Origin: Erysipelothrix sp.
GTDB lineage: Bacteria > Bacillota_I > Bacilli_A > Erysipelotrichales > Erysipelotrichaceae
NCBI GenBank assembly: GCA_012512595.1
Contig: JAAZDW010000022.1
Coordinates: 1 to 56,232 of the forward strand
Reading direction: 5' to 3'
DNA: 56,232 nt
A program made the translations under genes and the position numbers. The first letter of the stretch is position 1; each line of letters begins with the position of its first letter. The notes beneath the pieces are model-generated. The model made no database searches, was not told the origin of the DNA, and saw only the letters and a program-made list of their open reading frames with translations. Of this stretch, positions 1,446-32,547 are shown in pieces.

Positions 1446-1489
1446 TTAATATACAAAAGTTTGTATATTAAAGCGCTTTCATGTACAAT
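1446..1489 (+). promoter_or_regulatory. promoter with 12-bp-arm perfect palindrome and cre-like site
   Basis: TTAATATACAAA-AG-TTTGTATATTAA at 1446-1471; -35 TTGTAT 1461-1466, 17-bp spacer, -10 TACAAT 1484-1489; cre-like TTAAAGCGCTTTCA 1468-1481 lies in the spacer. Confidence 0.65.
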
Positions 1490-1537
1490 GTATATATATA
1501 TGTGATATCATATACACATAGATTAAGGGAGGATAAT

Positions 1538-2809: not shown

Positions 2810-2820
2810 ATTAATCAATT

Positions 2821-2862
2821 TGCACCTTTAAAGTTATCCAACCTTAAGGGTGCATTTTTCTT
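2821..2862 (+). terminator. rho-independent terminator
   Basis: tgcacctt ... aagggtgca followed by tttttcttt. Confidence 0.65.
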
Positions 2863-2890
2863 TAAACAAAGAGTTTTGTAAGGAGGAGTT

Positions 2891-3058
2891 ATGCAAGAAC
2901 TGTCAGATAGTTTTGGATGGCCAATTGCTATTGGTCTATTAATTGGCTTCATTATAGGCTTATTGATTAAAAACTTTTATATAGGACTAGGCATAGGAAT
3001 TGTTGGAGCAATTGTTTATGTAGCTTATAAGCATAAGCAAAGAACAAATAAAGTTTAA
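2891..3058 (+). CDS. small 55-aa membrane protein
   Basis: ORF below the track cutoff: MQELSDSFGWPIAIGLLIGFIIGLLIKNFYIGLGIGIVGAIVYVAYKHKQRTNKV; strong RBS aaggagg. Confidence 0.55.
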   Translation: MQELSDSFGWPIAIGLLIGFIIGLLIKNFYIGLGIGIVGAIVYVAYKHKQRTNKV

Positions 3059-3231
3059 ATGTAGAAACCGGATTTTAAATATAATCTTTTAAAAGTCGGA
3101 TATTCAAGTTTACAGTTACTATAAATAGATTAAAATTTATTTTTCTAATAATTAGTACTTTAAATTAAGGGTCACAAACTTTACAAATCTATATTTCTTT
3201 ATATATAATTTAAACGAGGAGGCAATGAATA

Positions 3232-4320
3232 ATGATAAATTTAGGTATTTCAATTTACCCAGACAAATCAAAGCTCGAAGATGATTTGAAGTACATTGAA
3301 TTAGCAGGAAAATATAATGTTAAAAGAGTTTTTACCAATCTGTTGGGGTTAGGCGGCAAATCTAAAGAAGAGATTAAAGAAGAATTTACATCAAGAATCG
3401 ATCTTGCCCATAAGTATAATATGGAAGTTATCGTCGACGTTTCACCAAAAGTATTTGATGACCTTGGCATATCATACGATGACTTGTCATTTTTTAATGA
3501 AATAGGGGCAGATGGAATTCGACTTGACCAAAGTTTCGGTGGACAAAAAGAAGCAATTATTTCGTATAATCCATATGGACTAAAGTTGGAGCTAAATGCA
3601 AGTGGCAGCACACAACAGTTAGATAGTATTCTCTCTTTTAAACCAAATAGAGAGAAAATTATTGCGTCACATAACTTTTATCCACAACGACATGCTGGTC
3701 TAGCCTTAGATTTTTTTGTTAGAAATAGTCTAGAAGTAAAAAAACATAATCTTTATTTATCAGCGTTTATTTCAAGTAATACTAAGGATGCCTATGGCCC
3801 ATGGCCAGTCACTGAAGGATTATGTACATTGGAAATGCACAGAGATTTACCGATAGATTTGCAAGCTCGACATTTAATGGCTTTAGGATTTATTGATAAT
3901 GTAACTATCGCCAATGTATATGCTAGTGAAGATGAGTTTAAGTCATTAAGAGATATCGTTCAAGGCAAAATAAATATAAAAGTGATCAAAGAATATGAGT
4001 TATCAGATATAGAAGAAAAGATTCTTTATTATGATCAACATTTTGTAAGAGGCGATCTAAATGATAATGTACGTAGAAGTACAATGACAAGAGTGATATA
4101 TCGTGATTATGAAATAGAGCCTAAAAACACAAGAGATTTAAAGCGTGGAGATGTCGTTATTGTCAATGAGGAATATGGCCAATACAAAGGTGAGTTACAT
4201 ATTGTTTTAAAAGATATGGAAAACCAGGGCAATAAAAATGTTGTAGCTAGAATAAAAGAAGAAGAACTAATATTACTAGATAGTTTAGATTCATGGAATC
4301 ATTTTGTAATAATGAAATAA
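3232..4320 (+). CDS. MupG/DUF871-family TIM-barrel protein (6-phospho-N-acetylmuramidase-like)
   Basis: N-terminal MINLGISIYPDKSKLEDDLKYIELAGKYNVKRVFTNLL and overall length match DUF871/MupG; flanked by cellobiose-type PTS genes as usual for the family. Confidence 0.8.
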   Translation: MINLGISIYPDKSKLEDDLKYIELAGKYNVKRVFTNLLGLGGKSKEEIKEEFTSRIDLAHKYNMEVIVDVSPKVFDDLGISYDDLSFFNEIGADGIRLDQSFGGQKEAIISYNPYGLKLELNASGSTQQLDSILSFKPNREKIIASHNFYPQRHAGLALDFFVRNSLEVKKHNLYLSAFISSNTKDAYGPWPVTEGLCTLEMHRDLPIDLQARHLMALGFIDNVTIANVYASEDEFKSLRDIVQGKINIKVIKEYELSDIEEKILYYDQHFVRGDLNDNVRRSTMTRVIYRDYEIEPKNTRDLKRGDVVIVNEEYGQYKGELHIVLKDMENQGNKNVVARIKEEELILLDSLDSWNHFVIMK

Positions 4321-4345
4321 AATCAATAAAAAAAGGAGGTTTAAA

Positions 4346-4663
4346 ATGGTAAATGTATTATTAGTATGTTCGGGTGGAATGTCCACCAGTATTTTGGTGA
4401 AAAGAATGGAAAAAGCTGCAGAAGATAGAGGAGTCGAGGCTAAGATATGGTCTGAAGGTACAGGAGTATCAGATGATATCGTTAAGACGGCAGATGTAGT
4501 CTTACTTGCTCCACAGATTCGGTTCTTATTGTCTGAAATGAAGAAAAAACTCGAAGGCAAAATTCCAGTAGAATTGATTGATATGCGAGTTTATGGAACA
4601 ATGAATGGTGAAAAAGCTTTAGACTTTGCGTTAGAAGTAATGGAAAAATTTGACTCAAAATAA
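4346..4663 (+). CDS. PTS lactose/cellobiose-family EIIB subunit
   Basis: VNVLLVCSGGMSTSILVKRMEKAAEDRG, with phospho-Cys loop CSGGMSTS. Confidence 0.9.
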   Translation: MVNVLLVCSGGMSTSILVKRMEKAAEDRGVEAKIWSEGTGVSDDIVKTADVVLLAPQIRFLLSEMKKKLEGKIPVELIDMRVYGTMNGEKALDFALEVMEKFDSK

Positions 4664-12244: not shown

Positions 12245-13678
12245 ATGAACACAATAACCAAAAGAAATAAATGGACATATAGCGTTGGTTGTATTGGTCG
12301 AGATATGATATTTATCCTTGTCTCAATGTTTATGTTGCCTTACATTCAATACACAATGAATTTAACTGTTGCCCAATTTAGTGCTATCTCAACGATAATG
12401 ATATTTTCTCGAGTTTGGGATGCCTTTAATGACCCAATCATGGGAATGATTATTGAGAATTCAAGATTAAAAGGCGGCAAATTTAGACCTTGGGTGATGC
12501 TTGGTGGTGTAAGTAATTTTGCCATCACTATTTTATTATTTTTAGTTAGGCCGACTGGCTGGGCATTTGTGTTATTTTTTGGGATTGCATATATTGCCTG
12601 GGGAATGACTTTTACAATCAATGACATTGCCTATTGGTCACTTTTACCAAATTTGTCATCAAATAATGATGAAAGAAATGAACTAACTAATTTAGTTCTA
12701 ATTTTTGCAAGTATTGGCCAATTCATAGCAGGTGGTCTAATACCGATTTTAGTTACAGGTAACGCCGTATGGATGTATAAAGTTTTAGGTATAAGCATTT
12801 CGTTTATATTTTTAGCTTTTACCCTACTTACATATTTTGGAGTTTCTGAAAGAATAGTTGTCGAAGAAAAACAGGGAAAAGTAAATTTAAAGAAAATGTA
12901 CAGTATATTATTTAAAAATGATCAGTTAATAATCGTTGCTATTGCCTTGTTACTTTACACAATTGCAATTGAATTATTCATGGCTTTCGGAATTAACTTC
13001 TTTTACTTTGAATTTGGTTATGGTGGTGTTCAATTGACAATCTTCACCGTATTTTTTGCACTTGGGTCTCTGACAGCTCTGCTCGTTTTTCCTTTTTTGA
13101 CCAAACACTATAAACGGATGAAGATAATGGGCATTGGAACATTAATTTCTGTCATTGGATATCTCTCATTTTTATCACTGGGATATCTTATTCCAATGAA
13201 TGAAATTATTCTATATACCAGTGCTTTTTTCATCTTTTTTGGGCTTAATTTATTCTTTGTTGTATTGGTTGTTATGACAGCCAATGTCATTGAATATAAT
13301 GAAATAAAGACAGGTGAACGTAATGAAAGCATCATATTTTCAATTAGACCATTTATGACAAAACTTGGAGCCGCCTTGCAACAGGCAATCGTGACCTTGG
13401 TTTTGATAATATCAGGAGTCTATGTTTACTCTCAACAAATAGCTGACTTAGAGATCCAAAAATCTCAAGGATTACTTCAAGAAATAAGTAGTCAAGCTAA
13501 TGTCATTTTGTCTAGTGCGACACCAAAAATGTTGTTAATGTTGAGAATTGGGATGGGGCTAATCCCGATGATTAGTATTGTTATTGCCTATTTACTAATT
13601 AAAAGTAAGTATACGATCACTGAAGAAAAATATGACCAAATACTTATTGACTTGGCAAAGATTAAGTTAGACAAATAA
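12245..13678 (+). CDS. GPH-family sugar:cation symporter (MFS)
   Basis: YSVGCIGRDMIFILVSMFMLPYIQYTM, RVWDAFNDPIMGMIIENS, GGKFRPWVMLGG typical of the family. Confidence 0.9.
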   Translation: MNTITKRNKWTYSVGCIGRDMIFILVSMFMLPYIQYTMNLTVAQFSAISTIMIFSRVWDAFNDPIMGMIIENSRLKGGKFRPWVMLGGVSNFAITILLFLVRPTGWAFVLFFGIAYIAWGMTFTINDIAYWSLLPNLSSNNDERNELTNLVLIFASIGQFIAGGLIPILVTGNAVWMYKVLGISISFIFLAFTLLTYFGVSERIVVEEKQGKVNLKKMYSILFKNDQLIIVAIALLLYTIAIELFMAFGINFFYFEFGYGGVQLTIFTVFFALGSLTALLVFPFLTKHYKRMKIMGIGTLISVIGYLSFLSLGYLIPMNEIILYTSAFFIFFGLNLFFVVLVVMTANVIEYNEIKTGERNESIIFSIRPFMTKLGAALQQAIVTLVLIISGVYVYSQQIADLEIQKSQGLLQEISSQANVILSSATPKMLLMLRIGMGLIPMISIVIAYLLIKSKYTITEEKYDQILIDLAKIKLDK

Positions 13679-16240: not shown

Positions 16241-17494
16241 TTATCCTATTTTCTGTCGAAATTTACTAGGGGTAATACCTTTTACTTTTTTAAATACCTT
16301 AGTAAAATAATTGCCATCATTAAAGCCCACCATATAAGCAATATCTGTAATCAACATCTTTTGATTTTGTAAAAGGTAGGTGGCTTCATTAATTCTTTGG
16401 ATATTTATATAGTCCACCAGCGAGATATTTGTTTCCTTTTTGAATTGTCTAGAAAGTTCAGATACACTTAAATTTAAAGAGGTGGCAATATTAATTAAAC
16501 TTAAATCCTGGTCAAGGTTACTGCGAATGTATTCAATTATTTTTCGAGTTGTATAAGTGTAATCTTTTAGTGAATATTTGCGGGTAGCGCTACAATAAGT
16601 TTGAACCATAGTGTTTATGATTTTTAAAAGAGTAGCGATGTTTGTTGCTTTTTCTATTTCAATTGCAAATCTTTCTGAAATACTGTGCAGTGTTATAGAA
16701 TCCAATCCACCTTTTTCAGCAGCTTTGCGCAATAAGGTGTTTAAAACAATTGATAAATTCTTACGCGAGCGTATAACGTCTTGAGGCAATCGGTCAGGAA
16801 TATTTTTTGCGATTGAAAGAAATTCTTTTGTTAATCGCTCTACTTCTTTTTTGTCACTTTTTTCAATTGCTTCAATTAATCTATTTTCTAATCTATAAAT
16901 TGTATTGATGTCTTTAACCGACATACTTATACTTGCTACAGGATTATAAGGTATAAAACAATCTTGATTGTCGGTCTTGTATTCAATTGTTTCAATACTT
17001 ATATCTTTTGTTGATCTTAAATTTAAGTTATTAATGTTGAAAACTAAAAACTCAGCAAGTTTTTTTGCCTTATATGGTGAAATTAGTGGTAGTGAAGCAT
17101 AGTATTGATTAAGTGTTGTTTTTAGTAAAATAGAGAGTTTATTTTCAAATAGTACATCTTCAATCATTAATAAAGATGGCTCATCTATAAGGTAGGGCCC
17201 TAAAATAATATTTCCAATATATTTTTCATTAACGTGAACTTTTGCCGAAATAAAGTTTGTTTTATTTGTGGTCGTAATTATAGATACCATTTGCTTTGAG
17301 TCGATATGTTCATTTTTAACAAAATCTACTGGTTTAGCAAAATGAGGTTGCAGGGAAATTGGTAGTAAGTTATAGCTATAATTAATTACTGTGTTAAAGT
17401 TATCATCAATAAAATATGTATCCATATCTGAAAAACTAAAAATCAAAGTACAAATGTTATCAACATGTTTGATTATTTCCTTCATTATCATCAT
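16241..17494 (-). CDS. AraC family transcriptional regulator
   Basis: C-terminal double HTH: IIEYIRSNLDQDLSLINIATSLNLSVSELSRQFKKETNISLVDYINIQRINEATYLLQNQKMLITDIAYMVGFNDGNYFTKVFKKVKGITPSKFR. Confidence 0.9.
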   Translation of the reverse strand: MMIMKEIIKHVDNICTLIFSFSDMDTYFIDDNFNTVINYSYNLLPISLQPHFAKPVDFVKNEHIDSKQMVSIITTTNKTNFISAKVHVNEKYIGNIILGPYLIDEPSLLMIEDVLFENKLSILLKTTLNQYYASLPLISPYKAKKLAEFLVFNINNLNLRSTKDISIETIEYKTDNQDCFIPYNPVASISMSVKDINTIYRLENRLIEAIEKSDKKEVERLTKEFLSIAKNIPDRLPQDVIRSRKNLSIVLNTLLRKAAEKGGLDSITLHSISERFAIEIEKATNIATLLKIINTMVQTYCSATRKYSLKDYTYTTRKIIEYIRSNLDQDLSLINIATSLNLSVSELSRQFKKETNISLVDYINIQRINEATYLLQNQKMLITDIAYMVGFNDGNYFTKVFKKVKGITPSKFRQKIG

Positions 17495-17719: not shown

Positions 17720-20017
17720 CTATTTTTTAATTTTTATTAACTCGCTATTAATAGCATACATCATTTTATCATTAAACTGTTTTGAGTCAAAATTAGCTAA
17801 GAAACTTAATTTAAATCCTTTTGCCATTTCAAGCATTGGGTTATTTTCAAAATCACCTAAATATTTTCTCAAGACAACCATTGCTTCTTCACTTTCAAGA
17901 ATTTCTGCGAAAGTTGATTCAATTGAGTAAACATTATCAGCGATTATTAATTCTTTTATTTCAATATCGTCAACATCTGGTGAATCAAACCAGTTACCGA
18001 CAAATGTTTTATCACTTTTTTTGATAAGATAACTTTCATTTGGTGCTGTGACCTTATTAAACATTGCAACATCTTTTATGTCTTTATCTCCATCTTTAGC
18101 TTTTGCAGTTATATAATTAACACCATCTTTTAAAACAATATCATCAAAAGTCACTGTATGATTAATAGCTGTCTTTGTAGAAACTTCGACATCATTTAAG
18201 TACAAAGTAACTTCTTCACAGTTTGTGTAAACTTTTACTGCAATAGTTTTGGTTGCTCTATCGATAAAACGTTTGCTAGTTATATGCACAAGCTTTTCAT
18301 CTGACCAATTAGCCTTGTACATATAGAAGGCGTCTTTCTTTATTTTTCGGTCATAAGTAATTAGGCCCTTGTTATTTCGCCCTTTAACTCCGCCTTCATC
18401 TCTAATATTGGCGCCAAAGTCAAACATATTCCAAACATAAGTTGCCCACAAAAACTCAAATTTATTGAAAATATTTAATACTATTTCATGGTATAAAGTA
18501 TGGTACTCTTCAGTATAATCGCCAACCGCTGGATTGGCAGTATGATATTCTATAATTCCCTCTGCACCATATTCAGATATACATAAAGGGACTTTTGGAT
18601 TAGTACTGTGGTAGTCTTTTATCCACTCTTCAAAATCTTCGGCTTTACCTTCATACCAGCCAAAATAACGATTAAAGCCAACAATATCTGTTAAGAAGTT
18701 ATATTCATCATCTTTACCAAATAGCATAATATTAGCCATTGTTGTTAATCTTGTTGGGTCTTCTTTTTTAGTTAACTGATTTAATTCATTAACAACTTTC
18801 CTAACTTCTGGTCGATCTCCTCCAATTTGAATTTCATTTTGAATTCCCCAAAACATTATTGAGGGGTGGTTATAGTTTTGTCTAATTAATTCTGTCATTT
18901 GTAACTTAGCATTTTTTCCTTCTAAATCTGTTTCTGACATTTTTGATATGAATGGTATTTCTGCCCAAACTACCATACCTTCTTGGTCACATAAATCATA
19001 GAAGTATTGATCTTGTTGATAATGAGCTAGCCTTATCGAGTTTGCCCCGACCTCTTTAATTAACTCCATGTCTTCTTTATGCTCTTTTGGTGTAATTGCC
19101 CATCCCATATTTTTTCGGTCTTGGTGTCTTGAAACACCCTTTAATTTTGTTTGTTTTCCATTTAAGAAAAAGCCCTTTTCAGGATCGACATTAAATGTTC
19201 TAACCCCAAAAGGAATAATAAGCTCATCTAAAACATCATTAAAACTTGTTAAATAAACTTTTGCTGAATACATATAAGGGTTATTGCGTGCCTGCCATAA
19301 AGTAGGTTTGTCAATAACTATTGGCATTTCAATTTCTTTATTTTCCTTTGCCGATAAAACAACTTCTTTAGCTGCATAAGTTACAATATTATTGTCGGCA
19401 TCTAATATATCAATCCACAACCTAACATTTTTATCTTCATTGTTTGAGTTAACCAGCTTGGACTTAATAGTTAAACAAGCTTCTTGCTCACTTACACTAT
19501 CTTGGCTAATGTATACACCTTGGGAACCATAGTCCATTAAGTCAAGGTGGACATTATTTGTGATAATAAGATTTACATCTCGGTAAATACCGCCAAAAAA
19601 GGTAAAGTCAGCCATTAGTGGATAAACATCGTCAACATATGTATTATCAACCTTAACCGCTAATACATTATTTCCACCGGGATTCATTGCTTGTGTGATA
19701 TCAAATCTAAATCTTGCATAGCCACCCTTATGTTGGCCTAAGTGCTGTCCATTTAAGTAGGCGTCGGTAATACTGTTAGAACCATTAAATTCAATAAATA
19801 CTCTGTTTCCCTTTGCCATTGAATCGATGTTTAGATCTTTTCGATACCAAGATGCACCTCGGTGATAATCACTACCAGTCGTACCATCGATGGCGTTCCA
19901 AGTATGCGGAACATTTACTGTTTCCCATTGACTATCGTCAAAGTCAATATTTTTAGATAATTCTACATCTTCTTTTAAAAACTTCCAATTCTTGTTGATA
20001 TTAATAAATTCTTTCAT
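17720..20017 (-). CDS. GH2 family beta-galactosidase/beta-glucuronidase with C-terminal helical tail
   Basis: GVSRHQDRKNMGWAI; SIMFWGIQNEIQIGG acid/base; VPLCISEYGAEG nucleophile. Confidence 0.9.
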   Translation of the reverse strand: MKEFININKNWKFLKEDVELSKNIDFDDSQWETVNVPHTWNAIDGTTGSDYHRGASWYRKDLNIDSMAKGNRVFIEFNGSNSITDAYLNGQHLGQHKGGYARFRFDITQAMNPGGNNVLAVKVDNTYVDDVYPLMADFTFFGGIYRDVNLIITNNVHLDLMDYGSQGVYISQDSVSEQEACLTIKSKLVNSNNEDKNVRLWIDILDADNNIVTYAAKEVVLSAKENKEIEMPIVIDKPTLWQARNNPYMYSAKVYLTSFNDVLDELIIPFGVRTFNVDPEKGFFLNGKQTKLKGVSRHQDRKNMGWAITPKEHKEDMELIKEVGANSIRLAHYQQDQYFYDLCDQEGMVVWAEIPFISKMSETDLEGKNAKLQMTELIRQNYNHPSIMFWGIQNEIQIGGDRPEVRKVVNELNQLTKKEDPTRLTTMANIMLFGKDDEYNFLTDIVGFNRYFGWYEGKAEDFEEWIKDYHSTNPKVPLCISEYGAEGIIEYHTANPAVGDYTEEYHTLYHEIVLNIFNKFEFLWATYVWNMFDFGANIRDEGGVKGRNNKGLITYDRKIKKDAFYMYKANWSDEKLVHITSKRFIDRATKTIAVKVYTNCEEVTLYLNDVEVSTKTAINHTVTFDDIVLKDGVNYITAKAKDGDKDIKDVAMFNKVTAPNESYLIKKSDKTFVGNWFDSPDVDDIEIKELIIADNVYSIESTFAEILESEEAMVVLRKYLGDFENNPMLEMAKGFKLSFLANFDSKQFNDKMMYAINSELIKIKK

Positions 20018-20247: not shown

Positions 20248-20276
20248 TTGACACTTGTATACAAGTTGGTTATAAT
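20248..20276 (+). promoter_or_regulatory. promoter with palindromic operator in the spacer
   Basis: TTGACA 20248-20253, 17-bp spacer, TATAAT 20271-20276; ACTTGTATACAAGT perfect palindrome 20253-20266. Confidence 0.8.
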
Positions 20277-20283
20277 GTTTTTG

Positions 20284-20297
20284 TGATACCGCTATCA
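20284..20297. promoter_or_regulatory. cre (CcpA catabolite-responsive element) candidate
   Basis: TGATACCGCTATCA fits TGWNANCGNTNWCA at every constrained position. Confidence 0.65.
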
Positions 20298-20347
20298 AGG
20301 CGGAGAATCATTTGTAAAACAACTAAGTTTGTTTTGAGGAGGAAAAG

Positions 20348-22057
20348 ATGGATTATAAAAAAGTTTCACGTAGAATTCTTAAAGCTGTAGGTGGTAGAAA
20401 TAATATTCTACTACTAGAACAGTGTGCAACAAGATTGCTTTTTTCGATTAAAGACGAGTCTTTAGTAGATATAGCTGCTCTTGAAAAGATTGATGGTGTA
20501 TTAGGGGTTAATCAATCAAGAAATTTAGAAGTTGCTATAGGTACAGAAGTGGGCCAAGTTTTTGCGGCTCTTGCGCAAGCAGAAGTTACTATTAAAGGTA
20601 AAGTTGGCCAAAGCGTTTATAATGAAGTTGCTCTTTGGAGATTAGGGCTCTTTGCATTTAATAACACAGCTACTAATCTTTACATGATTGGTATGGCTTA
20701 TGTTTCTTATTATGCAAGTGGTATTGCCGGTTTAGCGGTAGTTACAGTTGGTACAATTTTAACTTTAATGAGAATTTTTGATGGATTTACAGATCCTATT
20801 GTTGGATATTTTATTGATAAAACAGACGGTAAGTTTGGTAAGTTTAGACCATTTATGGTTGCGGGTAACGTTATCTTAGGGATAATGACACTTACTATTT
20901 ATCATACAACTCACTTAGTTGATCCTAAATATAGACTAGTTTACTTCATAGCAATGTATGCAATTTATATTATTGGTTATACATTTCAAACAGCATGTAC
21001 AAAAGCTGGACAGGCTGCTATGACTAATAATCCTGAAACAAGACCAAAATTTGGATTGTTTGATATGCTTTACAATAGTATTATAATGACAGGTATTTCA
21101 TTATATGTTTCAACATATTTGGTGCCAAAACATGGTGGTTTCCAAGAACTTGCTTTATTTCATGAATTAGCCTTAACAGTAGTTATCTTCTCAGGAATAC
21201 TGACAGCACTAGCAGTAATTGGTATTTGGACTAAAGATAGAACAGAATTCTTTGGTTTAGGTGAAGGTTCTACTAAAACTACGTTTAAAGATTACTGGCC
21301 AGTTCTTAAAGGTAATAGACCTCTTCAAATGTTAATTGTAGCTGCAGGTACTGATAAAATTGCTTTAAGTGTTGCTGGTAACGCAACAGTAGCAGTAATG
21401 TTATACGGAATTATTATTGGCGACTTCTCATTAAGTGGATTGATAGGGATGATTGTGTTAGTTCCAACTCTACTAATAACTCTATGGGGAACAAAGTATG
21501 CTGGTAAATTTGGGCAGAAAAAAGCCTTAGTATTTGGTACTCAAGCATCAATTGTAATGTATGGTATCTTATTTCTATTCTTTTTATTAGCTGACCCAAC
21601 TCAAATTAGTCTTAAAAACTTTGGGTTGACAACTGCACTATTTTTAATACTACTTATAATATCAAACGGAGCAAAGACAATTTCTGGAGCCTTTGTTATT
21701 CCGATGATTTCTGACTGTGCTGACTATGAAACTTATAAGAGTGGACGCTTTGTACCAGGTATGATGGGAACACTATTCTCATTTGTTGATAAGCTTATAT
21801 CTTCTTTTGCTTCAATGATAATTGCATTTTCAGTAGCGGCTATTGGGTTTACTGATAGAATGCCAGATATTACAGATGGCGCGACTCCACAAATATTCTG
21901 GCTTACAATGGCTCTGTTTATTGGCTTACCAGTTTTAGGTTGGATTGCTTCACTAATAGCTATGAAATTCTATGACTTAGACAAAGAGAAAATGATTGAA
22001 GTTCAAAAACATATTCAATCTGAAAAAGAAAAATACATACTATCACAAGTTGAATAA
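20348..22057 (+). CDS. GPH-family sugar symporter with N-terminal glucose-type PTS EIIB domain
   Basis: Residues 1 to about 80: ILKAVGGRNNILLLEQCATRLLFSIKDESLVDIAALEKIDGVLGVNQSRNLEVAIGTEVGQVFAAL (EIIB with phospho-Cys CATRL); then a GPH MFS domain (RIFDGFTDPIVGYFIDKTDGKFGKFRPFMV). Confidence 0.85.
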   Translation: MDYKKVSRRILKAVGGRNNILLLEQCATRLLFSIKDESLVDIAALEKIDGVLGVNQSRNLEVAIGTEVGQVFAALAQAEVTIKGKVGQSVYNEVALWRLGLFAFNNTATNLYMIGMAYVSYYASGIAGLAVVTVGTILTLMRIFDGFTDPIVGYFIDKTDGKFGKFRPFMVAGNVILGIMTLTIYHTTHLVDPKYRLVYFIAMYAIYIIGYTFQTACTKAGQAAMTNNPETRPKFGLFDMLYNSIIMTGISLYVSTYLVPKHGGFQELALFHELALTVVIFSGILTALAVIGIWTKDRTEFFGLGEGSTKTTFKDYWPVLKGNRPLQMLIVAAGTDKIALSVAGNATVAVMLYGIIIGDFSLSGLIGMIVLVPTLLITLWGTKYAGKFGQKKALVFGTQASIVMYGILFLFFLLADPTQISLKNFGLTTALFLILLIISNGAKTISGAFVIPMISDCADYETYKSGRFVPGMMGTLFSFVDKLISSFASMIIAFSVAAIGFTDRMPDITDGATPQIFWLTMALFIGLPVLGWIASLIAMKFYDLDKEKMIEVQKHIQSEKEKYILSQVE

Positions 22058-22130: not shown

Positions 22131-23015
22131 ATGATAGAAAATATTCACGTTTCTGGATTTTCGGATGAAATATCTTCTGATTTTATAGAACAGTTAGAAC
22201 ACGTTACAAAGTTAGGTATGTCTTATATATCTATAAGAGGTGTTGATAAAAGAAACATTAATGATTATACAATTGAAGAAATTAATGACTATGTCAAACC
22301 GACTTTAGAAAAATACAAAGTTTCAATTTCTAGTATTGGATCTCCTATTGGTAAAGTGTTTATTGATGATGAAGAAGGATTTATTAAACAAAAAGAAGAT
22401 TTACACCGCCTTTGTGAAATAGCTAATATTCTGGGTACCAAGTATATAAGGATATTTAGTTTCTACATTCCAAAGGATGAAGGAGCAGATGCTTATCGTG
22501 ATAATGTAATTAGTAAATTGAAGGAATATGTTGCTATTGCAGCTAAATATGATGTCATTTTACTCCATGAAAATGAAAAAGATATCTTTGGTGACACTGA
22601 TGTTCGTTGTTTAGAAATTTTAAAGGGCGTAAATTCTTCGTATTTCAAAGCGATTTTTGACTTTGCTAACTTTGTCCAAGTTAATGTTGAGACACTACCA
22701 GCTTATAAATTGCTAGAATCAGAAATTGTTTATATTCACATCAAAGATGCCGTATTTGATTTAAATGAAAATGTTCTTTGTGGAACAGGTGACGGAAATA
22801 TTAAAGAAATTCTAAAAGATTTAATTTCAAAAGGTTACCAAGGGTTTTTAACTCTTGAGCCGCATCTAGTTATGTTTGATTCCTTGCAAGATTTAGAACT
22901 CGAAGCAGCAGAAGATGTAATTAAGGCTGACAAGGCAAAAGATGGTGCAGAAGGTTATCAAATGCAATATGATGCCTTATTAGAAATATTAAAAGAAATA
23001 GAAGGAGAGATATAA
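22131..23015 (+). CDS. sugar phosphate isomerase/epimerase family TIM-barrel protein
   Basis: AP_endonuc_2-like: LLHENEKDIFGDT, AIFDFANFVQ, YIHIKDA, LTLEPHL. Confidence 0.85.
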   Translation: MIENIHVSGFSDEISSDFIEQLEHVTKLGMSYISIRGVDKRNINDYTIEEINDYVKPTLEKYKVSISSIGSPIGKVFIDDEEGFIKQKEDLHRLCEIANILGTKYIRIFSFYIPKDEGADAYRDNVISKLKEYVAIAAKYDVILLHENEKDIFGDTDVRCLEILKGVNSSYFKAIFDFANFVQVNVETLPAYKLLESEIVYIHIKDAVFDLNENVLCGTGDGNIKEILKDLISKGYQGFLTLEPHLVMFDSLQDLELEAAEDVIKADKAKDGAEGYQMQYDALLEILKEIEGEI

Positions 23016-24182
23016 ATGAAAAAAGTAAGACTTGGAATTATTGGTTTCGGTGCAGAAGGTGGACTATATGGTCAACTTCTTAATAATGGCTTAGTTTCAA
23101 ATATGGAAATTGGTGCGATTTGTGATATTGACCCAGCTAAAGAAGCTTTAGCAGAGGAAAAACATCCAGGAGTACCATTTTATGACCATTACATTAAAAT
23201 GTTAGAAAGTGGAGATGTAGATGCAATTGTTACTACTGTTCCTCACTTTTTCCATACAGAAATGGCAATTGAAGCTTTAGACCGTGGATTTCACGTTCTA
23301 GGTGAAAAACCAGCAGGTGTTTATACTAAAGAAGTTGAGAGAATGAATGCTAAGGCAGCACAGCATCCAGAATTAACATTTGGAGTATTCTTCAACCAAA
23401 GAATGAACCCTCTATATCAAAAATTAAAAGAAATTGTAGAAAATGGCGAGATTGGTCAAATAAGACGTTCTAGCTGGATAATCACTAACTGGTGGAGACC
23501 ACAAGGGTACTTTGATCAAAGTGATTGGAGAGCAACTTGGGGTGGCGAAGGTGGAGGAGTTTTAGTTAACCAAGCACCACACCAATTAGACTTATGGCAA
23601 TGGATTTGTGGAGTACCAAAAAAGGTTTTTGCAAAGAATGCTTACGGATTTAGAAGAGACATTGCAACTGAAGACGAAGTTAACTGTATTGTTGACTATG
23701 GAGATGGTGTAACGGGTTCATTTACAACATGTACTCATGATATTGTTGGTACTGATAGATTTGAAATCTTGGGTGACCAAGGGAAAATTGTAGTTGAAAA
23801 TAGTAAGACGGCAACAATTACTCGTTTAAAGAAACCTGAAGTTGAATTAAGTAATAATATGGACATGAGTGATGTTATGAAACTGTTCATGGGTGGAATG
23901 GATTTATCAGAAATTTGGGAAGTTGAAACTCTTGAATTTGCACCAGAAGGACACGGATTACAACATGCAAGAGTTTTAGAAAACTTTGCGGCTAATATCC
24001 TAGACGGCACACCACTAGTTGCACCAGGATCTGATGGAATTGTTGGCGTTAGATTAGCAAATGCAATGCACTTATCAAGCTGGCTTGATAAAGAAGTAAG
24101 TATGGACTTTGATGAAGATGAATATTTAAAACTATTAAATGAAAGAATCGAAGCTGAAGGAAAATACGAAACAAGAGACTAG
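23016..24182 (+). CDS. Gfo/Idh/MocA family oxidoreductase
   Basis: LGIIGFGAEGGLYGQLL; HVLGEKPAGVYTKE. Confidence 0.9.
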   Translation: MKKVRLGIIGFGAEGGLYGQLLNNGLVSNMEIGAICDIDPAKEALAEEKHPGVPFYDHYIKMLESGDVDAIVTTVPHFFHTEMAIEALDRGFHVLGEKPAGVYTKEVERMNAKAAQHPELTFGVFFNQRMNPLYQKLKEIVENGEIGQIRRSSWIITNWWRPQGYFDQSDWRATWGGEGGGVLVNQAPHQLDLWQWICGVPKKVFAKNAYGFRRDIATEDEVNCIVDYGDGVTGSFTTCTHDIVGTDRFEILGDQGKIVVENSKTATITRLKKPEVELSNNMDMSDVMKLFMGGMDLSEIWEVETLEFAPEGHGLQHARVLENFAANILDGTPLVAPGSDGIVGVRLANAMHLSSWLDKEVSMDFDEDEYLKLLNERIEAEGKYETRD

Positions 24183-24201
24183 TTGTTATAGAGGAGATAA
24201 T

Positions 24202-25206
24202 ATGCTTAGAGTTGGAATAATAGGACTTGGAGATATAGCACATATTCATGTGCCATTAATAAACAAAAGCGAAAAAGTTAAACTTGTTGCTATTTGTGAT
24301 ATTGATGAATCCAAAAGAGACTTTGTAAAGGATGTAAATTTCTATACTAATTATGAAGAAATGGTAGAAAAAGAAAACCTGGATATTGTTCACGTATGCC
24401 TGCCACATTATCTACATTATCCTGTAACAAAATTCTTGGTTGAAAACAATGTTCACGTACTACAAGAAAAACCATTAACCCTTGATTATAAAGAAGCTTT
24501 AAAAGCAATTGAATTAAGTAAAAATACTGATGCTAAAATTGCCGTCTGTTTCCAAAACAGACGCAATGCCTCAGTTATAAAATTGTTAGAAATGGTCGCT
24601 AGTGAAGATTATGGAAAAGTCAAAGGCGTAAAAGGCTTAGTAGCTTGGGCACGTCCTAAGGCTTACTATGAAGATAAATGTTGGCGTGGAACATGGAAAT
24701 ATGCTGGTGGTGGAGCAATGATTAATCAATCAATTCACACCTTAGATATTATGCAATTGGTAGGGAAAAACATTATCAGTGTCACTGGATCAACAAGTCA
24801 ACTGCTAGATTATGAAATTGAAGTTGAAGATACAGTAGTGGCAAACATTGAATTTGAAAACGATGTTAAAGGATTTTACATGGCTACAAATGCAAATGTT
24901 GTTAATGATAGTGTTGAGATTAAAGTATATTTGGAAAAAGCAGAGTTAACGATTAGAAATAGTAAGTTATATATAACAGATGATAAACATGACGAGTTAG
25001 AATTAATTGAAGATGCCACTCTTGGTGGCCCTAAATCATATTATGGAGCAAGTCATGAGATTATTTTTGAAGAGTTTTATGACGCAGTCATAAATGATAC
25101 TGATGATTATGTGACGGTCGAAGATGCCGCTGTTTCAATCAAAATGATTGATGCAATCCATATTTCATCAAAAGAGAAACGTAAAGTAAAGATGGAGGAA
25201 GTATAA
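24202..25206 (+). CDS. Gfo/Idh/MocA family oxidoreductase
   Basis: MLRVGIIGLGDIAHIHVPLI; HVLQEKPLTLDY; ATG 24202 preceded by gaggagata, downstream of the track start 24139. Confidence 0.9.
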   Translation: MLRVGIIGLGDIAHIHVPLINKSEKVKLVAICDIDESKRDFVKDVNFYTNYEEMVEKENLDIVHVCLPHYLHYPVTKFLVENNVHVLQEKPLTLDYKEALKAIELSKNTDAKIAVCFQNRRNASVIKLLEMVASEDYGKVKGVKGLVAWARPKAYYEDKCWRGTWKYAGGGAMINQSIHTLDIMQLVGKNIISVTGSTSQLLDYEIEVEDTVVANIEFENDVKGFYMATNANVVNDSVEIKVYLEKAELTIRNSKLYITDDKHDELELIEDATLGGPKSYYGASHEIIFEEFYDAVINDTDDYVTVEDAAVSIKMIDAIHISSKEKRKVKMEEV

Positions 25207-25207
25207 T

Positions 25208-26074
25208 ATGAGTAAAGCAAAAATTGGCGTACAAGCAATGATGTTAAAAGGAAAATTTGATGAGCTTGGAGCATATGAAACATTAAAAAAAGTTAGTGAA
25301 ATCGGTTATAACACTATTGAAATTTCACAAATTAAAATGACTGAAGAAAATGTTTCTGAAATGAAAAGAGCATGTGATGACTTTGGAATTAGAGTAGTCG
25401 CAATGTCACCAGCCCTTGAAGGAAATCCAATGATGCCACAAGAAAACTTACAAGATGACTATGACAAAATTGTTGCAGATGCAAAAACACTTAACTGCGA
25501 GTTTTTTAGAATTGGAATGTTACCTATCCCAAGTATGTTTTCATTAGAAAAAGTACTGGAATTCTGTGAGAAGTTAGAAGCAATGGCAGTCAAACTTCAA
25601 GATGATGGAATTAAGTTATACTACCACAACCACCATGTTGAATTTGAAAAGTTTGAAGGTAAATATTTATTAGATATTATCAGAGAAAAAGCTCCTTCAG
25701 TTGGCTTTGAGTTAGATGTTCACTGGGTACAACGCGCCGGTGAAGATCCAGTAAAAATTATTGAAAAATATGCTGGTCTTGTAGATTTAATTCACTTAAA
25801 AGACTACCGTGTTGGATCACTTGATCCATCGGCTTTAGACCATTTAGCAAAAGGCGATTTCAAATCATTCATGGATGAGTTTGCAAATGTAATTCAATTT
25901 GCAGAAGTTGGAGAAGGAAATCTTGACTTTCACGCAATTATTGCTGCAGGACTTAAATCTGGAGCTAAGTATTTCTTAGTTGAACAAGATGACACTTATG
26001 GAAAAGACGCCTTTGAAAGTTTAAAGATTTCATATGATAACCTTGTTGAAATGGGTTATGGGGACATGTTTTAG
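25208..26074 (+). CDS. sugar phosphate isomerase/epimerase family TIM-barrel protein
   Basis: YYHNHHVEFEKFEGKYLLDIIREKAP; FELDVHWVQRAGEDPVKIIEKYAG; LIHLKDY. Confidence 0.9.
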   Translation: MSKAKIGVQAMMLKGKFDELGAYETLKKVSEIGYNTIEISQIKMTEENVSEMKRACDDFGIRVVAMSPALEGNPMMPQENLQDDYDKIVADAKTLNCEFFRIGMLPIPSMFSLEKVLEFCEKLEAMAVKLQDDGIKLYYHNHHVEFEKFEGKYLLDIIREKAPSVGFELDVHWVQRAGEDPVKIIEKYAGLVDLIHLKDYRVGSLDPSALDHLAKGDFKSFMDEFANVIQFAEVGEGNLDFHAIIAAGLKSGAKYFLVEQDDTYGKDAFESLKISYDNLVEMGYGDMF

Positions 26075-26426: not shown

Positions 26427-27473
26427 ATGAAAATGACATTTAGATGGTACGGAAAAGATGACCCGGTCACATTAAATTATATTCGCCAAATTCCAAATAT
26501 GACAGGTGTTGTAACAGCTGTATACGATGTTCCAGTAGGAGAAGTTTGGCCAAATGAGAAAATAAAAGAATTAAAAGATGAAGTGCATAGTTATGGTTTA
26601 GATATGGAAGTTATTGAGAGTGTTCCAGTCCATGAAGATATCAAGCTTAAAAGAGGAGATTATCAATTATATATTGACAACTTCAAAGAAAATATTAGAA
26701 GACTTGCTGCTCATGGAGTAAAGACAATCTGTTATAACTTTATGCCAGTTTTTGACTGGACTCGATCAGAGTTAAATAAAGAGTTAGAAGATGGAAGTAA
26801 CGCCCTTGTTTTTTATACAGATCAAATCGATAAACTAGACCCAACAAAACTTTCATTACCAGGATGGGACTCCTCTTATTCACCAGAAGAAGTTGCAGAT
26901 TTAATTAAATCATATCAAGATATTGGCAATGAAGGACTATGGGATAACTTAACTTACTTCATCTCCGAAATATTGCCAGTAGCAATTGAAAATGATATCA
27001 ATATGGCAATTCATCCAGATGATCCACCTTGGCCAATTTTTGGAATTCCAAGAATTATCACCAATGAAGAAAACCTTGATAGATTTTTAGCTTTAAATGA
27101 TGACAAACGTCATGGTTTAACTTTATGTTCAGGAAGTTTAGGTTGTTCAACAACTAACGACTTTGTGGCAATGGTAAAAAAATATGCAGGCGCAGAAAGA
27201 ATTCATTTTGCCCACCTTCGTAATGTTAAAATAATTGGTGATGATGGCTCTTTTGAAGAGACAGCTCACTATTCAAGCTGTGGATCATTAGATATGGTTG
27301 AAATCTTAAAAGCCTATCATGATGCTGGCTTTAAGGGTTATGTAAGACCAGATCATGGTCGAATGATTTGGGGCGAAACTGGAAAACCAGGATACGGATT
27401 ATATGATCGTGCCTTAGGTGCAATGTACTTAGGTGGAATCTGGGAAACCTTAGAGAAATTAGGAGGCAAATAA
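26427..27473 (+). CDS. uxuA: mannonate dehydratase
   Basis: [68 protein letters not shown]. Confidence 0.95.
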
Positions 27474-28331
27474 ATGAAGTTACCTTTACAAGTAGATTTA
27501 AATAATAAAGTTGTTGTAGTTACAGGTGGAACCGGAGTGTTAGGCAATATTTGGGTTGATGCCTTAGTCGCTTCAGGTGCAAAAGTTGCTCTGCTTGGTC
27601 GTGATCAAGAAAAACTTGACGCCAAAGTTGAAGAGATATTAGCCAATGATGGGATGGCAATTGCGGTCAAAGCTGATATTTTAAGTAAAGAAGATTTAGT
27701 TAAAGCACACAAAATTGTATTAGATAAACTAGGCCCTTGTGACATATTATTAAATGGAGCAGGTGGCAACCATCCAAAGGGAAATACAAGCAAAGAATAT
27801 TTATACGAAGAAGATTTAAATAATAAGGATGAAAACGTTACAACGTTTTTTGACCTAGATGAAGATGGCATTAGATTTGTCTTTGATTTAAACTTTTTGG
27901 GAACATTTTTACCATCACAAGAATTTGCTAAGGACATGGTTGGAAGAAGTGGCTGTACAATTATAAACATATCTTCTATGAATGCTTATACTCCTTTAAC
28001 AAAGATTCCTGCATATTCTGGAGCAAAATCAGCAGTGTCTAATTTTACTGAGTGGTTAGCAGTTCATTTATCAAAAGTTGGAATTAGAGTAAATGGTTTA
28101 GCACCAGGATTTTTCTTAACAGCTCAAAATGAAGCCTTACTTTTAAATGAAGATGGAACTTATACTGAAAGATCAAATAAAATACTAAATAGTACACCAA
28201 TGGAAAGATTTGGAAAACCAGAAGAATTAGTCGGAGCCTTATTATTTTTAGCAAGTGAAGAAGCATCATCATTTGTTAATGGTGTAGTACTTCCTATTGA
28301 TGGTGGCTTTTCAGCTTATAGTGGAGTCTAG
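27474..28331 (+). CDS. SDR oxidoreductase, D-mannonate/fructuronate reductase type
   Basis: VTGGTGVLGNIW; NGAGGNHP; SGAKSAVSNFTEWLAVHLS; context next to uxuA. Confidence 0.85.
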   Translation: MKLPLQVDLNNKVVVVTGGTGVLGNIWVDALVASGAKVALLGRDQEKLDAKVEEILANDGMAIAVKADILSKEDLVKAHKIVLDKLGPCDILLNGAGGNHPKGNTSKEYLYEEDLNNKDENVTTFFDLDEDGIRFVFDLNFLGTFLPSQEFAKDMVGRSGCTIINISSMNAYTPLTKIPAYSGAKSAVSNFTEWLAVHLSKVGIRVNGLAPGFFLTAQNEALLLNEDGTYTERSNKILNSTPMERFGKPEELVGALLFLASEEASSFVNGVVLPIDGGFSAYSGV

Positions 28332-28332
28332 T

Positions 28333-29289
28333 ATGAGTGAAAAACTTTTTAAGGAAATATCAAACTATGGTATTGTTCCAGTAATTCAAATTAATAGAGT
28401 TGAAGATGCAATTCCCTTGGCTAAAGCTTTAATTGATGGTGGGCTACCAGTTGCTGAAGTAACCTTTAGAACTGATTGTGCTGAAGAAGCAATTAGACAA
28501 ATGGCTAATGAGTTTCCAGAAATGTTAGTTGGAGCAGGTACAGTTTTGACAGTTGAACAAGTAGACTTAGCAGTCGCGGCTGGTTCAAAATTTATTGTTT
28601 CACCAGGACTTAATCCTAAAATTGTTAAATACTGCCAATCAATTAACATACCCATCATCCCAGGTACTGCATCACCAAGTGACTTAGAACTAGCTATAGA
28701 GTTAGGGCTTGATACAGTCAAATTTTTTCCGGCCGAAGTTAATGGTGGTATTAATGCAATCAATGCAATGTCAGCACCATATGGTCAACTAAAATTCATG
28801 CCTACAGGAGGAGTCAACGAAAATAATCTTATGGATTATTTAAGTTCAGACAAGATTCTTGCCTGTGGCGGTACATGGATGGTTAAAAGTGATTTAATTG
28901 ATAATAAACAATTTGATACAATAAGAGATTTAACGCGCTTAGCAGTTAAAAAAATGTTAGATATAAAGCTTGACCATGTTGGTATAAAAAATGCTGACAT
29001 CAAAAATGATCAAGACATACAATTGTTAAAAAAGTTATTGATGACAGAAGAAAATGTAACTAGTGAAGAAACAACTGTTGGCGAAGTAAAATTTATTAGC
29101 GATATTTATAATGATCAAAAAGGTGACTTAGCTTTTTCTTGCAGCAATGTCGATAGAGCGGTATTTCATTTAGAGAAAACCGGAGTCAACTTTGATCATG
29201 ATACAGCAGTATATAATAATGGTAATTTAAAGTTAATTTACATTAAAGACAGTGTCGCAGGTTATGCGATACACTTATTAAGAAAGTAG
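28333..29289 (+). CDS. KDPG/KHG aldolase with about 100-aa C-terminal VOC-like extension
   Basis: GIVPVIQINRVEDAIPLAKAL; VKFFPAEVNGG Schiff-base Lys; C-terminal LDHVGIKN...GYAIHLLRK; ATG 28333 overlaps the preceding stop region. Confidence 0.85.
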   Translation: MSEKLFKEISNYGIVPVIQINRVEDAIPLAKALIDGGLPVAEVTFRTDCAEEAIRQMANEFPEMLVGAGTVLTVEQVDLAVAAGSKFIVSPGLNPKIVKYCQSINIPIIPGTASPSDLELAIELGLDTVKFFPAEVNGGINAINAMSAPYGQLKFMPTGGVNENNLMDYLSSDKILACGGTWMVKSDLIDNKQFDTIRDLTRLAVKKMLDIKLDHVGIKNADIKNDQDIQLLKKLLMTEENVTSEETTVGEVKFISDIYNDQKGDLAFSCSNVDRAVFHLEKTGVNFDHDTAVYNNGNLKLIYIKDSVAGYAIHLLRK

Positions 29290-29296
29290 GGGTTTT

Positions 29297-30316
29297 ATGA
29301 AAGTAGTAACATTTGGAGAAATTATGCTTCGTTTATCGCCGCACGGTTATCATCGCTTCACTCAAGCAGATTCTTTTGAAGCAACTTATGGTGGCGGGGA
29401 AGCAAACGTTGCCGTCTCTTTATCAAATTATGGTATGGACGCAGCTTTTGTAACAAAAGTACCAGAACATGCAATCGGACAGGCTGCAGTTAACGACTTA
29501 AGAAGATATGGAGTTGACACAAGCAAAATAGTTCGTGGTGGCGAAAGACTTGGTATTTATTACTTAGAAAAAGGGGCTAGTCAAAGAGCAAGCCAGGTTA
29601 TATATGACCGTGCTCATTCATCAATTGCCACTGCAAAACAAGAAGATTTTAATTGGGACGAAATATTCGATGGTGTAGATTGGTTCCACTTTACTGGAAT
29701 TACGCCAGCGCTCAATGATGATGTTGCCGCAATATGTTTAACGGCTGTTAAAAAAGCAAGAGAACTTGGAGTAAAAGTATCTTGTGATTTAAACTACCGC
29801 AACAAGTTGTGGAGTAAAGAAAAAGCAAACGAAGTAATGAGCGGTTTAATGCCTTATGTTGACTTAGTTGTCGCTAATGAAGAAGATGCTTATGATACAT
29901 TTGGAATCAAAGCCGGTAATACGGATGTAACATCAGGAGAACTTGAACATGATAGTTACATTGATGTAGCCCGTCAACTTAATGAGAAGTTTGGTTGTGA
30001 ATATATTTCTATAACTTTACGCGAAAGTGTTTCAGCATCAATAAACAATTGGGCTGGAATGCTATATACGGGTGGCAAGGCATATTTCTCACCAACGTAT
30101 AAAATCCATATTGTTGACCGTGTTGGTGGCGGTGACTCTTTTGGTGGCGGATTAATTTATTCAGTTTTAAATGGCAAAAAACCACAAGATGCGATTAATT
30201 TTGCTGTTGCTGCAAGTTGTTTAAAGCACACAGTTCAAGGTGACTATAACCGCGTAAGTATTCAGGAAGTTGAAACTTTAGCCGGTGGAGATGGTTCAGG
30301 AAGAGTCCAGAGGTAA
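29297..30316 (+). CDS. kdgK: PfkB-family sugar kinase, 2-keto-3-deoxygluconate kinase type
   Basis: MKVVTFGEIMLRLSPHGYHRFTQADSFEATYGGGEANVAVSLSNYG; DRVGGGDSFGGGL. Confidence 0.85.
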   Translation: MKVVTFGEIMLRLSPHGYHRFTQADSFEATYGGGEANVAVSLSNYGMDAAFVTKVPEHAIGQAAVNDLRRYGVDTSKIVRGGERLGIYYLEKGASQRASQVIYDRAHSSIATAKQEDFNWDEIFDGVDWFHFTGITPALNDDVAAICLTAVKKARELGVKVSCDLNYRNKLWSKEKANEVMSGLMPYVDLVVANEEDAYDTFGIKAGNTDVTSGELEHDSYIDVARQLNEKFGCEYISITLRESVSASINNWAGMLYTGGKAYFSPTYKIHIVDRVGGGDSFGGGLIYSVLNGKKPQDAINFAVAASCLKHTVQGDYNRVSIQEVETLAGGDGSGRVQR

Positions 30317-30320
30317 TAAA

Positions 30321-31721
30321 ATGAAAAACTTTTTAGATAATGATTTTTTACTGTCAACTAAGACAGCCCAAGATTTATACCATAACCATGCTGCAAAGAT
30401 GCCGATATATGATTTTCATAATCATTTATCAGCCCAAGAAATATACGAGGATAAAAAATTCAAAGATATAACAGAGGCTTGGCTCCAGTTTGACCACTAC
30501 AAATGGCGTGCCTTACGCAGTAATGGAGTTAGTGAACATTTTATAACTGGGAAAGCCTCAAGTTATGAAAAATTTGAAAAATGGGCAGAAACAATGCCAT
30601 ATCTGTTTGGAAATCCACTGTATCATTGGACACATTTAGAGTTACAAAGATACTTTGATATTGACACACCTTTAAATAAAGAAACATCTAAAATGATATT
30701 TGATGAGTGTAATCTTAAACTTCAAAATGATGACTTTAGTGTTAGAAATATATTATTAAAGTCTAATGCAAATACCTTGTGTACTACAGATGATCCTTGT
30801 GATGACTTAAGATTTCATAAAGCTCTTAAAGATGAAGGTTTTGAAGTAAAAGTTCTGCCAACCTTTAGAACGGATAAGATTGTTAATATTCAAAAAGATT
30901 CATTTATCCCTTACCTTAAACAAGTATCAGAAACAGTTGGTTATCCAATTGAAACCTATTCAGACTTTGAAAGAGCAATCTTTGAAAGATTGGAATACTT
31001 TGTAGAAGTGGGAGCGTTATTTGCAGACCATGGCTTGGATCAAATACTTTATGAAGACGCAAATTTAGACGAAGTGTCCGTAATCTTTTTAAAAGGAAAA
31101 AACGGAGAAAAACTAACTCAATCTGAAATTGCTAAATATCAAGGTTATGTTCAAAATCAAATGGGTAAAAAATACGCAGAAAATGATATGGTTATGCAAT
31201 TACACATAGGTCCACTTAGAAATAACAACACTAGAATGTTCAATGAAATAGGCCCGGATACAGGATTTGATTCGATGCAAGATAAAGAAGTTGCACAACA
31301 TCTATCTAATTTTTTAGATAGTTTAGATAAAACAAATGAATTGCCAAAGACTATTTTATATAATTTAAATCCAAAAGATAATCAAGTTTTATCTTCAATG
31401 CTTGGAAACTTCCAAGATGGAGTAACACCTGGAAAGATTCAATTTGGTCCTGGCTGGTGGTTTAACGATCATAAAACTGGGATGTTTGAACACCTAGAGG
31501 TTTTAGCTTCCACAGGTTTAGTGTCACGCTTTGTTGGGATGTTAACTGATTCAAGAAGTTTCTTATCCTTTCCAAGACATGAGTACTTTAGAAGAATTTT
31601 ATGCGAGTTTATTGGAAATATAGTAGAAAACGGTGAATTTCCTAATGACCAAAAGTTTTTAGGCGAAATGGTTGAAGACATTTGCTATAATAATATCGTT
31701 GAGTATACAAAAAAGAAATAA
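30321..31721 (+). CDS. uxaC: glucuronate isomerase
   Basis: LYHNHAAKMPIYDFHNHLSAQEIYEDKKF; MQLHIGPLRNNN; WWFNDHKTGM. Confidence 0.95.
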   Translation: MKNFLDNDFLLSTKTAQDLYHNHAAKMPIYDFHNHLSAQEIYEDKKFKDITEAWLQFDHYKWRALRSNGVSEHFITGKASSYEKFEKWAETMPYLFGNPLYHWTHLELQRYFDIDTPLNKETSKMIFDECNLKLQNDDFSVRNILLKSNANTLCTTDDPCDDLRFHKALKDEGFEVKVLPTFRTDKIVNIQKDSFIPYLKQVSETVGYPIETYSDFERAIFERLEYFVEVGALFADHGLDQILYEDANLDEVSVIFLKGKNGEKLTQSEIAKYQGYVQNQMGKKYAENDMVMQLHIGPLRNNNTRMFNEIGPDTGFDSMQDKEVAQHLSNFLDSLDKTNELPKTILYNLNPKDNQVLSSMLGNFQDGVTPGKIQFGPGWWFNDHKTGMFEHLEVLASTGLVSRFVGMLTDSRSFLSFPRHEYFRRILCEFIGNIVENGEFPNDQKFLGEMVEDICYNNIVEYTKKK

Positions 31722-31860: not shown

Positions 31861-32547
31861 ATGATTATAAAAAATGGAAATAGCCTAGTATATAATACAG
31901 TAAAAGAGGATATACTGTATATGGACTTGCTCCCAGGTGAACTAATAAGTGAGATAGAAACATCAAAACGTTTTTCTATATCTCGGACTCCTGTTAGAGA
32001 AGCTTTTAAGAAACTTGAATATGAAGGACTTTTAGAAATTGTGTCACACTCAGGCACCTATGTCACATTAATCGACTTAGAAAAGATAAGTGACATAAGA
32101 TTTATGCGTGAGCAAATCGAACTTAAGGTTATTCAACTTCTAATTGAGAAATTTGATGATAAAATAGACGAGAAGTTTAGAAAAATTTTAATGAAACAAG
32201 AAAGTTTATTTGAAGCGAATTTGGATTCGAGTGTCTTAGCTAAAAGATTTATAAAAAGCGACAATGAATTTCACGAAGCAATGTTCGAAAGTGTTGGTAG
32301 ACTTGGTGTATGGGATTATTTGAAAAGTTTAGAACACCACTATGAAAGATTAAGGATGTTTTTAAATATTTATGATGAAGGACACTTGTACTCCTTGCAT
32401 AAAGATCACCTAAATATATATGATAATATTATAAAAAAGGACTATCCAAAAATAGAGAAAATATATATTGAACACTTACAAAGAGGAATTGACCGCGGGT
32501 CAGATTTTATTGCGAAAAACCCTCAATACTTTAAAAATGTTGAGTGA
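31861..32547 (+). CDS. GntR family (FadR/FCD subfamily) transcriptional regulator
   Basis: FSISRTPVREAFKKLEYEGLLEIVSHSGTYV; C-terminal FCD-like His/Asp pattern. Confidence 0.9.
   Translation: MIIKNGNSLVYNTVKEDILYMDLLPGELISEIETSKRFSISRTPVREAFKKLEYEGLLEIVSHSGTYVTLIDLEKISDIRFMREQIELKVIQLLIEKFDDKIDEKFRKILMKQESLFEANLDSSVLAKRFIKSDNEFHEAMFESVGRLGVWDYLKSLEHHYERLRMFLNIYDEGHLYSLHKDHLNIYDNIIKKDYPKIEKIYIEHLQRGIDRGSDFIAKNPQYFKNVE

Follow-up and report, generated by a model that had tools for sequence, protein, structure and literature searches.

The glucose-family EIIB domains of BglF, TreP, ScrA and PtsG belong to PTS permeases, and reuse of EIIB outside such permeases is seen in PRD regulators, whose EIIB-like domains are not on a membrane carrier. 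Another case of reuse, also with no membrane carrier, is a triosephosphate isomerase/EIIB protein (NCBIfam NF011497). In LacS of streptococci and lactobacilli, a GPH/MFS_2 carrier is fused on one polypeptide to a C-terminal EIIA domain of the glucose family, which is phosphorylated by HPr on a His residue (PMC10710835); according to a 2023 review, LacS is the sole bacterial transporter regulated by direct phosphorylation (PMC10710835). MelB, from the same transporter family, is bound and inhibited by EIIAGlc in inducer exclusion (PMC10942615). Here we analyze a gene of a gut bacterium whose product joins an ion-driven sugar importer of this family to an N-terminal EIIB domain. The protein resembles LacS in carrying a glucose-family PTS phosphodomain, thought to be regulatory, on the carrier polypeptide; however, the domain is an N-terminal EIIB with a Cys and EIIA as expected donor, instead of a C-terminal EIIA with a His and HPr as donor. 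It shares with MelB the transporter family and, as proposed below, PTS control at the cytoplasmic face, whereas the PTS partner of MelB is a separate protein that only binds and the EIIB is part of the carrier. With the EIIBs of BglF, TreP, ScrA and PtsG it shares sequence, predicted fold and the Cys-x-Thr-Arg motif, but it sits on a secondary carrier and has lost the second Arg of the loop in the protein studied here and the whole loop in three relatives. The literature searched, which mostly excluded subscription journals, contained no published description of an EIIB-GPH architecture; automatic pipelines have likely annotated such fusions before.

The window, i.e., the whole stretch of 56,232 nucleotides of Erysipelothrix sp. 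DNA analyzed, contains the fusion gene on the forward strand (20348..22057), with a reading frame open throughout and a product of 569 amino acid residues. According to Pfam, this single polypeptide contains a PTS_EIIB domain (PF00367) at residues 9-41 with 39.6 bits and an MFS_2 domain (PF13347) at residues 110-546 with 137 bits, both above the cutoff of 27, as the initial annotation had anticipated. The EIIB domain (20348..20581, forward strand, residues 1-78) has the predicted fold H-E-E-H-E-E-H and is followed by a flexible linker (20588..20614, forward strand, residues 81-89, pLDDT <50) and by the GPH/MFS_2 symporter domain (20615..22054, forward strand, residues 90-569). The AlphaFold model of the whole protein has a mean pLDDT of 83.2 and shows this same order: the H-E-E-H-E-E-H domain, the low-confidence break at 81-89 and the helical carrier. 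MelB is the best solved match of the carrier domain and accounts for its top five PDB matches. The score of the carrier against TIGR00792 (gph) is 158.3 bits, below the curated cutoff of 231.35, and the carrier is therefore a divergent GPH branch, filed under PF13347/MFS_2 and not under TIGR00792. Pfam found on the fusion protein neither an EIIA domain (PF00358) at the C-terminus, so that the contrast with LacS architecture holds, nor the EIIC domain (PF02378) of a PTS permease. The other GPH protein of the window (12245-13678) has no EIIB domain in Pfam, as noted previously. A frameshift or an assembly join between two genes is ruled out by orthologous fusions with intact frame in five other assemblies, as well as by the Shine-Dalgarno sequence and promoter of the gene. 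An internal start giving an EIIB-less carrier was also rejected, as codons 78 to 95 include no in-frame ATG, GTG or TTG; this absence, together with the upstream signals, gives good support to the start codon at 20348.

A profile based exclusively on 32 EIIB domains of PTS proteins matched the whole EIIB domain of the fusion with 66.9 bits, and in a six-frame search of the window with this profile nothing besides this domain passed the inclusion threshold. Using phmmer against solved structures, matches were EIIBs: 3ipj (5.9e-8), and 3bp3 and 1o2f (about 1e-5). The nearest NCBIfam families for the N-terminus are beta-glucoside IIABC, cellobiose/arbutin/salicin IIBC and sucrose IIBC, each of which matches through its own N-terminal EIIB. 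Alignment with PTS EIIBs predicts Cys26 (codon TGT, 20423..20425, forward strand) as the phospho-acceptor, and Thr28 and Arg29 of the Cys26-Ala-Thr-Arg29 motif are kept. However, the second Arg of CxTRxR is absent: the window protein (LEQCATRLLF) has Leu31 (codon CTT, 20438..20440, forward strand) at a position which in the 32 PTS EIIBs is Arg (30) or His (2); the set of 32 was filtered for the motif, yet every retrieved PTS EIIB spanning the loop fits it. Thus, the earlier description of a complete EIIB with the Cys in its usual context is right as to the domain and Cys26, Thr28 and Arg29, and wrong as to the second Arg. In E. coli IICBGlc, mutants of the two loop arginines are impaired more in passing phosphate on to glucose than in accepting it from EIIA. 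If this mutant behavior holds here, Leu31 would mark an EIIB that only receives phosphate.

The fusion was found in six genomes from three genera of Erysipelotrichaceae: the window's genome (G000), and G030, G023, G245, G246 and G247, which belong to two other genera. The search covered 276 genomes from the same family, 320 from its order, 395 from its class, 388 from its phylum and a further set of 388 from the class to which a Lachnospiraceae genome belongs; these sets overlap and comprise about 1,180 distinct genomes by handle. The fusion was absent from the remaining Bacilli and Clostridia sampled; per genome, the best few candidates were scored under strict E-value limits, which could miss fusions of other GPH branches. 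Among the matches listed in a GTDB contig scan, the same fusion group appears under Erysipelotrichaceae and Holdemania names, and elsewhere only EIIB-less relatives appear (Trichococcus, Clostridium, Lachnospiraceae and Shouchella). The ten best-scoring places in plasmid records all fail to reach the phosphorylation loop. Three EIIB-less GPH relatives (L068, L078 and L080, of G107, G091 and G117, respectively) show an insertion of ~30-40 residues about halfway along the carrier. The six fusion proteins do not form one supported clade in a tree of the carrier domain, but the AU test does not reject such a clade (p 0.486); the fusion may have arisen once and been lost in some lineages, or have arisen at least twice. 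Frame and length of the fusion are kept across the three genera. EIIB identity among the window, G030 and G023 proteins is 35-45%, and EIIB diverges faster than the carrier (45 vs. 65% identity between window and G030). G030 also has a second EIIB-GPH copy (L125 3247-4800, G030:C48), broken by many stops; immediately after it come two intact genes, for a stand-alone EIIA and a MelB-like GPH protein, and a gene for a probable alpha-galactosidase. An operon of that copy with the EIIA gene was discarded because the copy is broken.

Comparison of the loops shows three forms: CATRLRF in G030 and G023, CATRLLF in the window, and YS(D/E)NHLYV in G245, G246 and G247. Cys-Ala-Thr-Arg is thus present in three of the six proteins, while in the G245-G247 lineage Cys, Thr and both Arg are gone and EIIB position and predicted fold are kept. 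The Cys-less domain is below Pfam recognition (E 0.1-0.15). Nevertheless, a profile of PTS EIIBs that left out all fusions gave 18.6-19.8 bits on G245-G247 against 7.1 for the best of 500 shuffles, and the first seven Foldseek matches of the AlphaFold model of the Cys-less domain (pLDDT 72, from an alignment that included EIIBs) were all EIIBGlc-family structures, one at E <0.001; both results exclude that these N-termini are unrelated sequence. Between G247 and G245/G246, dN/dS was 0.08-0.09 for the Cys-less domain (72 codons of EIIB, dS about 0.9-1.0) and 0.10 for the carrier. Purifying selection on the Cys-less domain points to a role independent of phosphorylation, at least in G245-G247. 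Judging from these residues, the phosphorylation loop appears to be in the process of loss, with the window protein as an intermediate form. An EIIB domain that is real, rare and kept by selection despite losing its phosphate-carrying residue is probably a regulatory part of the symporter.

We therefore give about an even chance to the following reading: a cation-coupled GPH symporter with a cytoplasmic regulatory EIIB, which a stand-alone EIIA phosphorylates in trans where the Cys is present and which is a phosphorylation-independent module in one lineage. The symporter would most likely import beta-glucuronides or related glycosides, and the EIIB, hanging on its short flexible linker at the N-terminus on the cytoplasmic side, would regulate it. 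In the Cys-bearing forms (window, G030 and G023), phosphorylated stand-alone glucose-family EIIA would phosphorylate EIIB, and the phosphorylation state, set by PTS sugar supply, would alter the seating of EIIB, alone or EIIA-bound, on the inner face of the carrier. This would change the transport rate, in either direction, as in LacS with its own EIIA or MelB with EIIAGlc. The EIIB would act as a receiver, not a donor, with no phosphate passed on to sugar, and in G245, G246 and G247 phosphorylation would be lost and the domain would stay as a phosphorylation-independent module.

Support for a phosphate-receiving EIIB comes from the two domains in one ORF conserved in three genera, from the Cys-Ala-Thr-Arg of half of the proteins, and from loss of the second Arg in the window and of Cys, Thr and both Arg in G245-G247 at low dN/dS. 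Furthermore, in B. subtilis EIIBs lacking their own EIIA receive phosphate in trans from EIIAs of the glucose family (PMC6148471), and control of MelB by EIIAGlc places the same transporter family under the PTS. The window's genome, in an assembly 66% complete, contains EI and one stand-alone glucose-family EIIA (G000:C13), and the EIIB of the fusion is the sole PF00367 domain of that assembly. EI, HPr and a glucose-family EIIA are present in each of the other five genomes with the fusion, and in G023 the EIIA gene is about 3.6 kb from the fusion. This stand-alone EIIA (L127 6311-7412, G023:C57) lies beside a YheO-like PAS/HTH regulator, between a TetR-like gene and hexuronate genes. Against phosphorylation by EIIA, the window's genome has its EIIA gene away from the fusion, its 66% complete assembly yielded no HPr, and EIIB, which diverges faster, is under looser constraint than the carrier; the existence of a Cys-less lineage also indicates that phosphorylation is dispensable for whatever maintains the domain there.

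In a different explanation, EIIB would serve all six proteins for docking or structure, independently of phosphorylation, and the Cys that remains in some of them would be disappearing. For example, EIIB could achieve inducer exclusion by tethering unphosphorylated EIIA to the carrier, or it could stabilize one carrier conformation. Plain binding is enough for EIIAGlc to inhibit MelB (PMC10942615), the Cys-less domain retains the EIIB fold under purifying selection, and the second loop Arg is already missing in the window protein. However, the window, G030 and G023 proteins still share Cys, Thr and the first Arg at an EIIB identity of only 35-45%. Loss of both loop Arg, as in G245-G247, should also damage the usual EIIA interface. 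We regard this explanation as rather unlikely, with an appreciable chance of being right.

The genes around the fusion bear on what EIIB might otherwise do. On the reverse strand, the divergent neighbor (17720..20017) encodes a GH2 enzyme whose nearest NCBIfam family is beta-glucuronidase LacZ4 (690.7 bits, under the cutoff of 950), and an AraC regulator with a PocR sensory domain is encoded at 16241..17494. Downstream on the forward strand are a xylose-isomerase-like TIM barrel, two Gfo/Idh/MocA proteins and a second TIM barrel (22131..26074), a pairing that we take to resemble glycoside 3-oxidation/cleavage systems, followed by a hexuronate pathway of UxuA, a short-chain dehydrogenase, KDPG aldolase, a PfkB kinase, probably KDG kinase, and UxaC (26427..31721), and by a GntR/FCD regulator (31861..32547). 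The G023 locus has the isomerase/dehydrogenase set 3' of its fusion, and an aldolase, a kinase and the GntR/FCD regulator before it. In G245-G247 another gene, AraC-like by sequence, ends just before the fusion and GH2 genes come after. A PTS EIIC, a MupG 6-phospho-N-acetylmuramidase and a lactose-type EIIB-like ORF (4316-4660) are also found together in the window at 1481-4660, a possible amino-sugar PTS with separate subunits. The idea that this EIIC (1481-2809), taken as EIIB-less, borrows the EIIB of the fusion was rejected, because MupG and the lactose-type EIIB-like ORF come after it.

Upstream of the fusion, a sigma-70 promoter TTGACA-17-TATAAT (20248..20276, 12/12 match) contains in its spacer the perfect palindrome CTTGTATACAAG (20254..20265), followed by a cre-like element, TGATACCGCTATCA (20284..20297), and a Shine-Dalgarno sequence, GAGGAGG (20336..20342), all on the forward strand and the last two read directly from the sequence. 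The palindrome is also found 5' of the fusion in G030 (L031 3992), and G023 has two copies there (L127 10348 and 10371), which places it at the fusion promoter of all three Cys-bearing loci; no palindrome is directly upstream of the fusion in G245-G247. With one mismatch allowed, its core shows no excess over chance expectation in the window; its interest lies in its position in three orthologous promoters, not in frequency. It may serve as operator for the cluster's GntR/FCD regulator, and TGATACCGCTATCA, which resembles TGGTAGCGCTTTCA in G030, is a candidate CcpA/LacI-family site. In a Roseburia genome, CTTGTATACAAG occurs twice (L049 6836-6847 and 6957-6968) 5' of an EIIB-less GPH gene; this operator-like palindrome is thus not confined to one family.

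With its own regulators, the hexuronate cluster could be read as the target of a sensor, in which EIIB sequesters or phosphorylates a transcription regulator and the PTS state sets expression of the cluster. Mlc is sequestered by EIICBGlc in its dephosphorylated state (PMC3901232), the structural matches include 3bp8, a structure of Mlc with EIIB, and SacX, phosphorylated by glucose-family EIIAs, acts on the regulator SacY (PMC6148471). However, the neighboring regulators are GntR/FCD, AraC/PocR and TetR, with no ROK or PRD protein seen beside the fusion, and we consider this output improbable. A neutral relic, an EIIB acquired by recombination that does nothing, would fit the narrow distribution, the faster divergence of EIIB and the broken second copy in G030, but it is hard to reconcile with a dN/dS of 0.08-0.09 even in the domain without Cys and with a frame and length kept in three genera, which make it quite improbable. 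Group translocation, with the fusion phosphorylating incoming sugar and the GPH domain replacing EIIC, finds an echo in the N-terminal EIIB of beta-glucoside PTS permeases, located on the same side of the membrane domain, but is scarcely credible for a protein with no EIIC, with the second Arg missing in the window and the whole loop in three relatives, and with no clear phospho-glycosidase adjoining the gene. The clustered pathway, as predicted from its genes, would use free hexuronates and phosphorylate only at the KDG kinase step, and a pathway for non-phosphorylated sugars argues against a sugar-phosphorylating transporter. Transport coupled to substrate phosphorylation, proposed in the initial annotation, is consequently disfavored, while its other proposal, a different mode of PTS control, stays the best reading.

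A regulatory EIIB phosphorylated in trans would, if true, be the second case after LacS, using another PTS domain and another residue. Tentatively, and with somewhat less than an even chance, we suggest that bacteria may have a second way of controlling a transporter through its direct phosphorylation by the PTS, at the Cys of an N-terminal EIIB on a secondary symporter, with the window protein as intermediate and one lineage having a phosphorylation-free pseudo-EIIB regulator. The six proteins, with CATRLRF, CATRLLF or no Cys in the loop, offer a natural series for separating what an EIIB needs for regulation from what it needs for sugar phosphorylation.
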